Source of the DNA: a virus
Direction: 5' to 3' (one strand)
Length of the DNA stretch: 23,133 bases
IMG/VR virus record: IMGVR_UViG_3300020468_000078
Span: 1 to 23,133 of that record
Positions 391-11,805 of the stretch are shown one piece after another. The translations under genes were made by a program, and so were the position numbers. Under the pieces are notes generated by a model. It was given only the letters and a program-made list of their open reading frames with translations. It had not been told where the DNA came from and searched no databases. Every line of letters begins with the position of its first letter. The stretch's first letter is position 1.

Positions 391-2568
391 TTAAACGGTA
401 CCGATTACTTCTTCAAACGAGATTCCAGTTCTCGTGGCGACGAAGGTTAGACCAATGAAATTGATTGATCTTGATGGTTTTATGAAAATGTCAGCAACAA
501 ATTCATTATTATCTATAACAGCAGCAGTGTTATTTGTCTCATCACAAACAACTCTAAAGTCTGTAACACCTCTCTTGGATTGAACATCACGCATGAAAGG
601 TTCAACAATGTTTACAAAGTTTGTCCTTGTAATTTCATCGTTGAATTCAAATAGTTGATCTCTAGCAGCAGCAGAAATTGCATCTTCAAGGAAGATAAAC
701 AATCTACGAACATTGATACGATCAAATGCTGATGCTTTTCCAAGACCAGTTTTATCACCAAATAAGATGATACCTGCTCCTGGTGAGAATATAATTGGGT
801 TAATTCGATTTGAGTAAAGTTTATCTCTTTGAATCTGTGAAGGATTGTATGCGAGTTTTACTGCGTTAAGAATTGATCCTCTTGCTGTTCCCGCTGGTGA
901 GAACCAAGGGAAATTGTTTATGTCATTTCGAGCACAAGTTCCAGCAATATCTCCATTCATAGGTACATATCGGAATGTGTCTGCGAATCTATCATACATG
1001 TACTTGTATCCAGTATCGAATACAGCATAAGATGATGAAGGTATTGGTGAATAGTACTTGACTAAATTGTCTGTTATATCTGAACTTGATAGTATTTGGG
1101 CAGATCCAACAGTGTCAACAAGAACTGATCCTCTGTTAGGAGAGATAAATGCGACTGTATCTTTTCTAATTTCAGCGATTGATATTAATTTGGAAGAAAG
1201 TGCCTGAGAATCCTCTCTAGACATTGATCCTGATCCCATAAGTAAGAAATCAACATCAAATTCTTCTGTATTTTCAAATAGTTCGTAACCAGAAACTAAT
1301 CCACTAAGTGGAACTGATAATGAACCAGCAGCTGAATAATCAGAACCACTGTCATAATTTTGTCCACCACCTAATGTAAGAGTTGTTGCTCCAATACCAG
1401 CAAAACTGATTCCTTGAGCATTCTGATCCCAACCATTATCAGAAGAATGTGAATTAAAGAATGATGTTCCACCAGTACCAGTAGCAATATTAGTTGTTGT
1501 AATACCTGTAGGAGCTCCACCAGCAAAGATAGTCTTTGAAGAATTTACAATAAATTTTCTCCAATATGAAGGAGATCCAGCGGAAAACTCAGCATCTTTT
1601 GCTTTTGAAAGATTTAAATTCTTTTCAAGGATTGTTCCAGCATTACCTGTTATCGTTCCTTTATCATCAATAACTACTACATGTACTTCATCAAATCTTG
1701 AACTTCTTGCTGAAGCATAGTTTGAAGTGCCTGGTCTATCAGCGAGTTGACTCCACTGAACAGTACTGTTAGTTAATTGAACTGTTTGTTGATCATACCA
1801 GTCTTTTTGTGCTGAAACAGATTCTGTTCCAACAATAGAACCATCACCAACTTGACGAAGTGTAAGAGTTCCTGTTCCAGGAAAAGAAAATGTTCCAAGT
1901 GGTTCATAATCTTTAGCAGTTTCTATTCCAGCAGCGGATACGTGACTAATAAATTTAACACTAATCTGACCAGATATATCTGTCTCAGTAACTATTCCCT
2001 TATAGAATCCATCAAGAACAGATGTTGAACCAGCTCCTATTTGATAGGTTGCGGATGGAACTTCCATTGTAATTCCCATACCAACAACAGCAGTGTGTGA
2101 TGCTCCCACTGTAAGTACCTGATCAGCTGCGTTATCAACAATAGCGACTCTTAAGTCATTTGCCCAAGATCCAGGATTTCTTGCTGCTACAGTTATGTTT
2201 GTAATGGTATTTTCATCATAACCATTATTATTATAATCATCTAAAGAGTTTATTTTAATACTCGTTGCTGTTCCAACCTTTGCATTTGCTAAAGAAGCAT
2301 CATCTGCTCTAACTACACTTAAAACTCCACCATATGATAAGTATGAAGATGCTACCATCCAATCTTCATATTGACTATCCGTGGCAGTTGGTTCTCCAAA
2401 AAGGTCAATAAGATCAGCTTCGTTCTCTACAGTTGTAGGTATGTTAACTGGTCCTTTAGAAAAGGCAGCTACTATGGCAGCAGTCTTATCGGTTGCAGTG
2501 TCTACTCTACCAATAGTAAGGTCAACCTCTCTTACCAAAATTCCAGGAGATGCTAAATTAATGGGCAT
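391..2568 (-). CDS. gp18: Tail sheath protein gp18 (725 aa)
   Basis: This is the contractile sheath subunit, which polymerises around the tail tube and shortens on infection. The N-terminus (PINLASPGILVREVDLT, then G-P-V-N-I-P-x-x-V and D-L-I-D-L-F-G-E-P) is the classic sheath start. The middle, about residues 110-400, is rich in G, S and T and variable, as expected for the surface-exposed domains. The C-terminus, about 600-725, carries the conserved polymerisation core: F-D-R-I-N-V-R-R-L-F-I-F-L-E, then F-x-F-N-D-E-x-T-R, V-x-P-F-M-R-D-V-Q and F-I-K-P-S-R-S-I-N-F-I. At 725 residues it is somewhat longer than T4 gp18 (659). The start has GGAG at 2577-2580, 8 bases upstream. A probable late promoter lies about 20 bases before the start, so gp18 and gp19 may form their own late unit. 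Confidence 0.97.
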   Translation of the reverse strand: MPINLASPGILVREVDLTIGRVDTATDKTAAIVAAFSKGPVNIPTTVENEADLIDLFGEPTATDSQYEDWMVASSYLSYGGVLSVVRADDASLANAKVGTATSIKINSLDDYNNNGYDENTITNITVAARNPGSWANDLRVAIVDNAADQVLTVGASHTAVVGMGITMEVPSATYQIGAGSTSVLDGFYKGIVTETDISGQISVKFISHVSAAGIETAKDYEPLGTFSFPGTGTLTLRQVGDGSIVGTESVSAQKDWYDQQTVQLTNSTVQWSQLADRPGTSNYASARSSRFDEVHVVVIDDKGTITGNAGTILEKNLNLSKAKDAEFSAGSPSYWRKFIVNSSKTIFAGGAPTGITTTNIATGTGGTSFFNSHSSDNGWDQNAQGISFAGIGATTLTLGGGQNYDSGSDYSAAGSLSVPLSGLVSGYELFENTEEFDVDFLLMGSGSMSREDSQALSSKLISIAEIRKDTVAFISPNRGSVLVDTVGSAQILSSSDITDNLVKYYSPIPSSSYAVFDTGYKYMYDRFADTFRYVPMNGDIAGTCARNDINNFPWFSPAGTARGSILNAVKLAYNPSQIQRDKLYSNRINPIIFSPGAGIILFGDKTGLGKASAFDRINVRRLFIFLEDAISAAARDQLFEFNDEITRTNFVNIVEPFMRDVQSKRGVTDFRVVCDETNNTAAVIDNNEFVADIFIKPSRSINFIGLTFVATRTGISFEEVIGTV

Positions 2569-2596: not shown

Positions 2597-2649
2597 CTGA
2601 AATTATTTATTAAAAAGGGTATTTTCATCGGGGAAACAATACGTGAACA

Positions 2650-2880
2650 CTACCAATCTGGATACATCCAATCAGTAAATATCCCTTTCTTTTTCCTATT
2701 TTTAACTATTCTTTTAATTGTACATGTTTTACATTCGTAAGAATATGATGAAGCAAGAGTAGATCTATCCTTATGAGTCAGATAAAATCCATCAACTAAA
2801 TCCTTTACTTCTCCACATATTCTACACTTTCTTTCAGAGAATAATAAATGTTCTAAATCTATCTGATCATTAAAATCCAT
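2650..2880 (-). CDS. Small four-cysteine (zinc-ribbon-like) protein, 76 aa
   Basis: The function is not known. Cysteines 19 and 22 (C-R-I-C-G-E) and 50 and 53 (C-K-T-C) give a C-x2-C-x27-C-x2-C pattern, a probable zinc ribbon or other treble-clef knuckle. The pattern C-x2-C-G-E-x-K with a following F-Y, then C-K-x-C and a basic stretch (K-R-I-V-K-N-R-K-K-K), is common in small phage proteins. Some of these resemble the metal-binding part of HNH or endonuclease VII proteins, but no H-N-H catalytic motif is visible here. The protein ends in the aromatic W-M-Y-P-D-W. The start overlaps the stop of the upstream Nfu gene as TAATG, so the two are probably coupled. The four cysteines could instead hold an Fe-S cluster, given that neighbour; this is inference. 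The gap that follows holds the gp18 promoter. Confidence 0.85.
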   Translation of the reverse strand: MDFNDQIDLEHLLFSERKCRICGEVKDLVDGFYLTHKDRSTLASSYSYECKTCTIKRIVKNRKKKGIFTDWMYPDW

Positions 2881-3116
2881 TACAAAACTTGAATTACTCC
2901 ATTACAATCAGGAATATCTTGCATAATTTTATTTTCAATACCTTGTTTTAATGTCATCGCACTCATTGCACAACTTGTACAAGCACCTCCTAATCTAACT
3001 TTAACGTAGTTTGTACCTTCTTCTATCTCTACAAACTCCACAAATCCACCGTCTGCTTCTATGTAAGGAGCGATTTCAGATAAAGATTTAGTTACGTTAC
3101 TTTCATTTAAATCCAT
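2880..3116 (-). CDS. Nfu-type (NifU C-terminal domain) Fe-S cluster scaffold, 78 aa
   Basis: This is a stand-alone Nfu domain. In cells such proteins carry a 4Fe-4S (or 2Fe-2S) cluster, often bridged between two monomers through a CxxC, and hand it to apoproteins. Visible here are I-A-P-Y-I-E-A-D-G-G (residues 15-24), V-K-V-R-L-G-G-A-C-T-S-C with cysteines 46 and 49, then M-T-L-K-Q-G-I-E and a terminal V-I-Q-V-L. All family landmarks are present, so it should bind a cluster. Length and ends resemble the short CnfU proteins of cyanobacteria and plastids rather than the longer two-domain NfuA of proteobacteria. That suggests a host-derived auxiliary metabolic gene, although the origin is inferred. 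It overlaps the 38-residue gene upstream and the four-cysteine gene downstream by single-base TAATG junctions, so it should be made late, with the packaging genes. Confidence 0.93.
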   Translation of the reverse strand: MDLNESNVTKSLSEIAPYIEADGGFVEFVEIEEGTNYVKVRLGGACTSCAMSAMTLKQGIENKIMQDIPDCNGVIQVL

Positions 3117-3232
3117 TATAGTATAAGAATAGTTTGTGAACCGTCTTTATTATCAGTTATGGTTATCTTTTTATTTGGAAATGATTTAGTTAATAATCTT
3201 TTCAATTTCGCATGTTTAAATAAATTCTTCAT
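3116..3232 (-). CDS. Tiny basic protein, 38 aa, between terminase and the Nfu gene
   Basis: This short open frame reads MKNLFKHAKLKRLLTKSF and continues to a hydrophobic end (Q-T-I-L-I-L). The evidence for it is positional. Its ATG overlaps the gp17 stop as TAATG, and its own stop overlaps the Nfu start as TAATG. It therefore fills the space between the two genes exactly, as a translated gene in a coupled string would. The first half is strongly basic (eight Lys/Arg in the first 22 residues) and probably helical. The second half (I-T-I-T-D-N-K-D-G-S) looks like a beta hairpin. I recognise no family. It might be only a short coupling cistron that keeps ribosomes running into the Nfu gene, or a small nucleic-acid or terminase partner. 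Confidence 0.7.
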   Translation of the reverse strand: MKNLFKHAKLKRLLTKSFPNKKITITDNKDGSQTILIL

Positions 3233-4878
3233 TACCGATAATCCCACATATAAGATCTGTCACCATATTCATCAACTTTCCATATATCTCCATCCTTATC
3301 AACAAAGGAATCATCATCTAAACCATCAGACATAAAACCAAATGGTGCCATATCTTGTTCAATTTGATTTTTTTGTTCTTCATATATTCTTTTTCTTACA
3401 TCATTATCAGTCATCTCTTTGAAATAATCCTGTGCCACTAACCACGCAAATATTACAAGGCACATTGCTAAGTCATCATTACAACCTTCTTCTGCCTCAA
3501 ATGAATTATGTTTTTGTGAAAATGTAGTTAATTCTGATATTACATCATAATCATTTGTAAGTAATTTATCATCCTCAATTAAAGTTTTTAAATTACTACA
3601 ACCTAATTTTTTAACAGCAGCAGTTGTTCTCACCCCAAGTTGAGATTTTTTACCACTAAATCCAGATCCAACAACCTGACCCGCACGTCCTCTCATAGAA
3701 CACATAAGTATGTTTTCATATTCTAAATCATATTGTAGTATACTGGCAACCTGATCTCCAATATCGTTTACTTCTATTAACAAAAATGATTCATTATATC
3801 CTTTTGATACATCATAGATGACATTTGGAAATAACATTGGTTTAATTTCATTATTTCGATACTTTGCTACAACTTTATATGGAAAACTTGTTATATCAAA
3901 AACAATAAAAGCTGAATAATCATTTCCAAGACCACGAGCAACATCAACTGTAATCAAATAATTATGTTCTTTAATTGGATTTTCATAGATATCAAGACCA
4001 GCGTTTCTATTAATTGGATCTTCATATATTAAATTTCTAAGTTTATTTGGAGCGATTAATGTATTGATTGATCCTAAAAATTCACACTCAAACTCAATTT
4101 TAAATTGTGCTTCAGAAGTATTTGCTATTGTTTGTTCTCTCCATAGTTCATCTCTACCAGGAACCTCTGACCAATGAACATCAGTTGGAATATATTCGCT
4201 TTTACCTTTTTCGGCATCATGCCACATACGATAAAAATGATTCATACCTCTTGGGGTAGAAACAATTATAACTTTTGTGCTTTGACCAGAGGTAATAGTA
4301 GGATATACAGAAGCAAAAAATTCATCGGCAATATGATTTGGAATAAACGCAAACTCATCAAGAAAAATTACGTTATATGATCCACCTCGAACAGCTGATG
4401 ATGAAGTTGAGTTTGCTGATATCTTTGAACCATTTTCTAATTCTAACGATCCCTTATTCCAAGAAACAATACCTTGCTGCATCCATCTTGGTAAATTTTC
4501 ATATGCTAATTGAAGCCTACCCAGTAAATCTCTTGCTGTTGATGCTTTGTTTGCCAGTATTGCTATATTTACATTTTCATTAAAAACTGCATAATGTAAT
4601 AAGTAAGATACACATGTTGTAGATTTACCAGTTTGTCTTGGCATCTTACAAATATTAAAACGATTCTCATGAAAATTACGAACTAATTTTTCTTGAAAAT
4701 CATAAAGATTAAAAGGAACTAGTCCCTCATCAAGAGATACAATTTTAATATATTTTCTTGCGAAATAAACAGGATCATCCTTACATTTTAAAAATTCAAG
4801 AATATTTTCTTGAGTGAATTCAATCTGCGTATTTGCTTTTTTTAAGTTTGGATTTCCAAGATATACATTATTAGACAT
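3232..4878 (-). CDS. gp17: Large terminase subunit gp17 (548 aa)
   Basis: This is the ATP-driven packaging motor and headful nuclease at the portal vertex. The ATPase domain has a Walker A at residues 79-87 (M-P-R-Q-T-G-K-S-T), a Walker B at about 170-175 (V-I-F-L-D-E, Asp174 and the catalytic Glu175) and the coupling motif V-S-T-P-R-G (206-211). The RNase H-like nuclease domain has V-D-V-A-R-G (Asp312), I-E-V-N-D (Glu369) and C-N-D-D-L-A (Asp468/Asp469), the expected acidic triad. Length is close to T4 gp17 (610). The acidic tail (residues about 517-548, rich in D) is variable in the family. The gene lies 9 bases after the 140-residue gene; I see no strong ribosome site, so translation may depend on read-through from upstream. 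Its stop overlaps the 38-residue gene. Confidence 0.98.
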   Translation of the reverse strand: MSNNVYLGNPNLKKANTQIEFTQENILEFLKCKDDPVYFARKYIKIVSLDEGLVPFNLYDFQEKLVRNFHENRFNICKMPRQTGKSTTCVSYLLHYAVFNENVNIAILANKASTARDLLGRLQLAYENLPRWMQQGIVSWNKGSLELENGSKISANSTSSSAVRGGSYNVIFLDEFAFIPNHIADEFFASVYPTITSGQSTKVIIVSTPRGMNHFYRMWHDAEKGKSEYIPTDVHWSEVPGRDELWREQTIANTSEAQFKIEFECEFLGSINTLIAPNKLRNLIYEDPINRNAGLDIYENPIKEHNYLITVDVARGLGNDYSAFIVFDITSFPYKVVAKYRNNEIKPMLFPNVIYDVSKGYNESFLLIEVNDIGDQVASILQYDLEYENILMCSMRGRAGQVVGSGFSGKKSQLGVRTTAAVKKLGCSNLKTLIEDDKLLTNDYDVISELTTFSQKHNSFEAEEGCNDDLAMCLVIFAWLVAQDYFKEMTDNDVRKRIYEEQKNQIEQDMAPFGFMSDGLDDDSFVDKDGDIWKVDEYGDRSYMWDYR

Positions 4879-11797: not shown

Positions 11798-11805
11798 TAT
11801 TTATA
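11798..11805 (-). promoter_or_regulatory. T4-type late promoter upstream of the 114-residue gene
   Basis: The minus strand reads TATAAATA, a perfect match to the T4 late consensus. It lies in the short gap between the 63-residue gene and the 114-residue gene, about 25 bases before the latter's ATG. The 12 bases at 11794-11805 are identical to those at the gp8 promoter. It probably starts a late transcript for the fibre, neck and packaging genes. Confidence 0.8.

Follow-up and report, generated by a model that had tools for sequence, protein, structure and literature searches.

In a cyanomyovirus close to P-SSM2, the gene for a small iron-sulphur (Fe-S) carrier of the Nfu family was found between the genes of the large terminase subunit (gp17) and the tail sheath (gp18), at a site that nearest relatives leave empty. 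The analysed stretch, referred to as the window, is an IMG/VR fragment of 23,133 bases, and its gp17 is 88% identical to gp17 of Prochlorococcus phage P-SSM2. In our judgement, nfu is probably auxiliary metabolic cargo in a hotspot between gp17 and a gene for a four-cysteine (4-Cys) protein, and its product probably delivers Fe-S clusters to electron-transport proteins late in infection. The gene occurs in viral genomes, has a host-type function, lies outside the core and is maintained by selection, as is characteristic of viral auxiliary metabolic genes.

All genes of the locus are located on the minus strand. gp17 (548 aa, positions 3232..4878; PF03237/PF17289, phrog_2) is followed by a gene for a small basic protein of 38 aa (3116..3232), by nfu (78 aa, 2880..3116), by the gene of a 76-aa protein with the cysteine pattern C19-x2-C22-x27-C50-x2-C53 (2650..2880), and by gp18 (725 aa, 391..2568, with its start at 2568; PF04984/PF17482, phrog_23). 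The motif TAATG, with a one-base overlap, is present at all three junctions from gp17 to the 4-Cys gene. The original prediction of three small genes joined in this way to gp17 and to each other therefore agrees with the layout in both coordinates and cysteine patterns. That these small reading frames are genes was also borne out, with dN/dS values of 0.07 and 0.08 for nfu and the 38-aa gene, respectively, and with the assignment of the 76-aa frame to phrog_4723 (E 1.8e-36), which was found in 113 phage records. In two relatives, gp17 is split into two or three overlapping frames (L014, 3246-4858; L008, 4366-5995), probably through errors of assembly or through frameshifts.

The 78-aa protein is a bona fide single Nfu domain (NifU C-terminal type) with the CxxC motif C46-x2-C49, encoded at 2981-2970 on the minus strand. 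It matched profile PF01106 over positions 1-66 of 67 with an E-value of 3.8e-23 and 81.9 bits, far above the cut-off of 27 bits, and the closest solved structure is Arabidopsis chloroplast CnfU2 (2z51, E 2.8e-23). The CxxC motif was kept in every Nfu of the compared set, except for five separate nfu-like paralogs (nfuX). Strong purifying selection acts on the protein (2217 pairs, median dN/dS 0.07). Compared with relative L001, the amino acid identity of Nfu was 100%, and pN was 0.005 at a pS of 0.53, while gp17 reached a pN of 0.078 at a pS of 0.59. The similar pS values point to a similar age of both genes and to a far stronger constraint on Nfu, so that a recent transfer is ruled out as the source of the complete identity. 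By its sequence, Nfu looks like a functional member of the late packaging and tail operon, which would carry and transfer clusters.

In the nearest relatives, L293-L296, the order is gp17, 38-aa gene, 4-Cys gene and gp18, without nfu. These contigs are 93-98% identical to the window in gp17 (89-100% in short pieces of L293) and 93-96% in the 4-Cys gene. Relative to the window, their alignment skips from position 3103 to 2882, with a 16-base overlap between the two BLAST pieces in 4/4 relatives. The overlap is a direct repeat of 16 bp with a single mismatch, the left copy of which, TAATGGATTTAAATGA, spans the start of nfu (3103..3118, minus strand) and the right copy, TAATGGATTTTAATGA, the start of the 4-Cys gene (2867..2882, minus strand). 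The spacing of the copies is 236, and the missing unit of 236 bp corresponds to one Nfu gene minus the shared A. When the sequence to the left of the first copy is joined to that on the right of the second, the empty site results. It had been noticed beforehand that the last two genes share near-identical start contexts; these are the repeat that flanks the piece missing in the relatives, so that the start context is the boundary of the cassette. The repeat arises in part because each copy includes the TAATG junction and both proteins start with M-D.

As judged from the aligned sequences, nfu is a modular one-gene cargo that is gained or lost with the TAATG junctions intact. Recombination across the 16-bp repeat would be a suitable route, and since the repeat is also the start-codon context, the operon would stay intact with or without nfu. 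The exact empty site thus illustrates how a cargo gene may enter or leave an essential late operon with its translational coupling undisturbed.

The slot between gp17 and gp18 was then compared among relatives. Among the loci with both gp17 and gp18 ends, which were fetched by Nfu or NdhI and are therefore biased in their proportions, 46 contained nfu-4Cys and 37 a P-TIM68-type nfu-4Cys (including three copies of P-TIM68 itself). The 38-aa gene followed by nfu, with or without the 4-Cys gene, was found in 10 loci, nfu without a detected 4-Cys gene in 8, and the 4-Cys gene alone or nothing in 3; ndhI-nfu-4Cys was represented by one contig that had been fetched three times. The common order of gp17, nfu, 4-Cys gene and gp18 (46 and 37 loci) answers the earlier call for the same neighbours in relatives and shows that the slot is more than a peculiarity of one genome. 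When the 4-Cys gene was used as the anchor, gp17 was located directly upstream, without Nfu, in 54/80 loci, Nfu in 14/80, the 38-aa gene without Nfu in 7/80 and ndhI in 1/80. Directly downstream, gp18 followed in 73/80, and the remainder ran off the contig. In L203 (5-745) and L337 (around 4001), ndhI directly precedes the 4-Cys gene without nfu, so the same cargo site is held by another electron-transport gene.

The slot order is kept with at least two divergent Nfu subfamilies, and the Nfu tree, built on few alignment columns, requires several moves between the slot and other places. Plastid and mitochondrial PDB proteins served in this tree as proxies for named cyanobacterial and SAR11 Nfu, as the genome scan returned only Bacteroidota/Kapaibacteria, judged by its seed peptides. 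A slot that also hosts the 38-aa gene, ndhI and others, and in which gain and loss across a 16-bp repeat are easy, might take up any small gene, so that Nfu could be a neutral passenger that does nothing selectable. This we consider to have next to no probability, given the dN/dS of 0.07, the retained CxxC and an amino acid sequence more constrained than that of gp17.

The 38-aa gene is such an optional passenger of the slot, with or without Nfu. It recurs in relatives with a median dN/dS of 0.08 and was present in 15/80 of the 4-Cys-anchored loci, 7 of which lack Nfu; its product is outside the Nfu function. An unannotated ORF of P-TIM68 (NC_028955, 57670-57768), far from the gp17-gp18 slot, is 79% identical to the 38-aa protein.

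The 76-aa protein was initially regarded as a natural client of Nfu within a cassette of three co-dependent genes. The tight TAATG coupling of the three genes, the adjacency of nfu and the 4-Cys gene in about 85 slot loci and the four invariant cysteines would suit such a joint function, with Nfu as the loader of an Fe-S cluster for the 4-Cys protein. However, the 4-Cys gene occurs in 113 phage records, mostly of Synechococcus phages, and Nfu was found in none of those Synechococcus phages. It is without Nfu in most cyanomyoviruses (54/80 loci), and L293-L296 retain both the 38-aa and the 4-Cys gene, with only Nfu gone. A joint function of the trio is therefore highly improbable, and the proposed role of the 4-Cys protein as Fe-S client was discarded on account of the Nfu-free occurrence together with the empty site. 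The 4-Cys gene is instead a core gene between gp17 and gp18 in cyanomyoviruses.

The C-x2-C/C-x2-C fold, with phrog_4723 'endonuclease VII' as its best family match, implies zinc rather than an Fe-S cluster. The protein fits the CX2-4C...CX2C pattern of zinc sites, with the invariant C19, C22, C50 and C53 as putative ligands, and the 74 distinct members retain the four cysteines, the motif Y-E-C-K-x-C-T and the terminal Y-P-D-W. The hallmarks of the endonuclease VII DHHRN family are two CxxC pairs together with D-H-x-H, R and N (PMC6083498). Like Endonuclease VII and Hpy99I, the 76-aa protein has the two C-x2-C pairs and resembles the CxxC..CxxC part at the N-terminus of a complete EndoVII/Hpy99I-like phage protein encoded after nfu in L018. 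Unlike them, it has no conserved D-H-x-H, R or N: none of the catalytic residues D40-H41-x-H43, R54 and N62 (T4 numbering) is conserved in the family alignment, which has a variable [TIS]-[RH]-[KR] and, behind the second CxxC, an invariant T. The 76-aa protein model was built from the fetched loci only; the structure model was of low confidence (pLDDT 67), and its weak Foldseek matches to HNH/Hpy99I were not significant. By sequence, the protein is probably a treble-clef or zinc-ribbon remnant of the endonuclease VII/Hpy99I type in which the catalytic residues are absent. HNH proteins adjoin terminase genes in other phages (PMC5304195), and by analogy with this placement the most economical reading would be a zinc-binding packaging accessory. 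The intact EndoVII/Hpy99I-like nuclease of L018 (6237-6650; N-terminal CxxC..CxxC plus DH...RG..C..HN) overlaps nfu by one base and lies outside the slot.

With regard to expression, the cyanophage late promoter is NATAAATA with the core ATAAATA (PMC2984593). The window holds five copies of this core, compared to about 16 expected by chance on both strands, and all are on the coding strand (minus-strand positions 2604, 11798, 19389, 20019 and 20911), three in gaps before genes and two inside a gene. The copy at 11798 precedes the gene block whose last members are gp17 and the trio, and the copy at 2604 (2604..2610, minus strand) lies directly upstream of gp18, so that the trio would be the last part of the late transcription unit before it. 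A TATAAAT-like motif was found in 66/83 homologous gaps. In many relatives, nfu begins 2 bases downstream of gp17, too close to fit a promoter of its own. Position and promoter motif thus make late expression of nfu likely, by read-through and TAATG-coupled translation from gp17.

A position within the late structural operon could also mean that Nfu inserts an Fe-S cluster or iron into a virion protein of this operon, e.g., at the tail tip. Phage lambda gpL carries a cluster and is a parallel for such a role. However, a Pfam search of the adjoining structural genes found no Fe-S motif, most relatives that share these genes lack Nfu, and P-SSM2 has its nfu far from the structural genes, which renders a function in the particle very unlikely.

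For the preferred reading, i.e., delivery to electron-transport proteins, Nfu would receive clusters of the [4Fe-4S] and perhaps also the [2Fe-2S] type from the SUF pathway of the host and hand them over to electron-transport Fe-S proteins. In some phages, the clients may be phage-encoded, with NdhI, PsaC, ferredoxin and a radical-SAM/SPASM pair as candidates. NfuA of cyanobacteria is an essential protein that passes [4Fe-4S] to PsaC in vitro, and NdhI carries two [4Fe-4S] clusters (PMC7058544). In the relatives, ndhI is located directly before nfu in L053/L054, L174, L072 and the single-cell (SAG) virus record MH319726, with the order gp17-ndhI-nfu-4Cys-gp18 in L072, and 7/8 of the SAG virus records with ndhI also contain nfu. 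A SPASM-domain protein and a radical-SAM protein directly follow the slot nfu in L010 and L039, a petF ferredoxin (PF00111) was found 0.7-3.2 kb from nfu in six loci, and P-TIM68 encodes psaJF, C, A, B, K, E, D and ndhI in addition to its slot nfu. This linkage favours [4Fe-4S] electron carriers as putative clients, bearing in mind that these counts share ancestry and that auxiliary genes cluster in any case. The SPASM and radical-SAM frames of L010 (848-1734) and L039 (6237-7096) appear to be a split enzyme, SPASM first, that replaces the 4-Cys gene between gp17 and gp18.

The linkage is far from universal. In the ndhI scan, nfu was found within 1.5 kb in just 5/80 loci, and 2/7 larger ndhI-anchored contigs contained nfu; conversely, 3/19 nfu-anchored contigs had ndhI, and 0/15 in a second set. 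P-TIM40 has ndhI and no nfu. Near nfu loci outside the slot, PTOX was found in 7/53 and psbA in 3/53, while psaC and psaA are too rare in the collections for a linkage test. In G001, a 235-kb relative with a slot nfu, no Fer4, Fer2 or radical-SAM protein was recognisable, so that there the clients must be host proteins, or the client was not recognised. A strict dependence of nfu on phage ndhI, petF or psaC was ruled out as a general rule by the nfu-anchored contigs together with G001.

For phages like G001, the recognisable candidate clients are limited to PSI, NDH-1 or ferredoxin of the host. An Nfu without any recognisable phage Fe-S protein would equally suit a protein that, like E. coli NfuA, protects or repairs many host Fe-S proteins against oxidative stress with no favoured client, and Fe-S assembly genes are abundant in oxycline viromes, where they are read as a stress response (PMC8940887). 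Nevertheless, the repeated adjacency to ndhI, SPASM/radical SAM and petF speaks against such a general role, which we regard as unlikely. Of the earlier proposal for a late Nfu, electron transport is upheld as the probable beneficiary, while the 4-Cys protein is lost as a client.

Among known systems, cyanobacterial NfuA and chloroplast CnfU (PF01106) match the phage protein in having one Nfu domain, about 78 aa long and with CxxC. It differs from both in being phage-encoded, in forming its own clade (in the tree with proxies) and in its motif, CTSCAMSAMT instead of CGSCPSSTMT; its cluster binding is predicted. The Nfu domain of P-SSM2 nifU (PSSM2_228, annotated as NifU-like) is 73% identical to that of the window. 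However, this gene resides in an accessory region near petE, and gp17 of P-SSM2 is directly followed by gp18, whereas nfu of the window is part of the late packaging operon. P-TIM68 AVU42_gp100 (NC_028955, 98130-98411), annotated as 'hypothetical protein', is an unrecognised nfu with CxxC in the slot order gp17-(ORF)-nfu-4Cys-gp18. It is 42% identical to Nfu of the window, from which it differs by a 15-residue insertion before the CxxC strand, in a genome with PSI genes (psaC among them) and ndhI. The annotated phage records with Nfu comprise P-SSM2, P-SSM5, P-TIM68 and marine single-cell viruses; 140 relatives of the window type were found in IMG/VR, with P-SSM2, P-SSM5 and P-TIM68 as isolates, and none in the plasmid scan.

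Viral NifU itself is already known from the literature, which lists it among the auxiliary genes of viromes (PMC8940887, PMC7785012, PMC2186209). In the open-licence papers searched, neither the operon position of nfu nor the empty site nor the linkage to clients was encountered, and a loader of Fe-S clusters for phage electron-transport proteins is not addressed there either. Phages are known to carry photosystem and electron-transport proteins that need Fe-S clusters, in an iron-poor ocean. If phage Nfu serves PsaC or NdhI, the supply of cofactors would be part of the cyanophage redirection of host energy, and the cultured phages P-TIM68 and P-SSM2 allow a direct test of the delivery. More tentatively, and with considerable doubt, the gp17-gp18 junction of Prochlorococcus cyanomyoviruses might be a standing cargo site of the late operon, in which an Fe-S carrier and [4Fe-4S] clients (NdhI and the split SPASM/radical-SAM pair) are exchangeable units bounded by start-codon repeats. 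Such phages would bring dedicated cluster delivery for phage-encoded cyclic electron flow rather than relying on host NfuA.

Finally, the Nfu-like paralogs without CxxC (nfuX) adjoin PTOX, ndhI or a normal nfu and were found in L052 (2047-2277), L064 (382-615), L074 (2140-2373), L150 (1784-2014) and L174 (5093-5326). An AlphaFold model of nfuX reached a pLDDT of 84, with CnfU 2z51 (TM 0.76) and the NifU-like C-terminal domain 1th5 as top PDB matches, which suggests a likeness to the CxxC-less second domain of plant CnfU.
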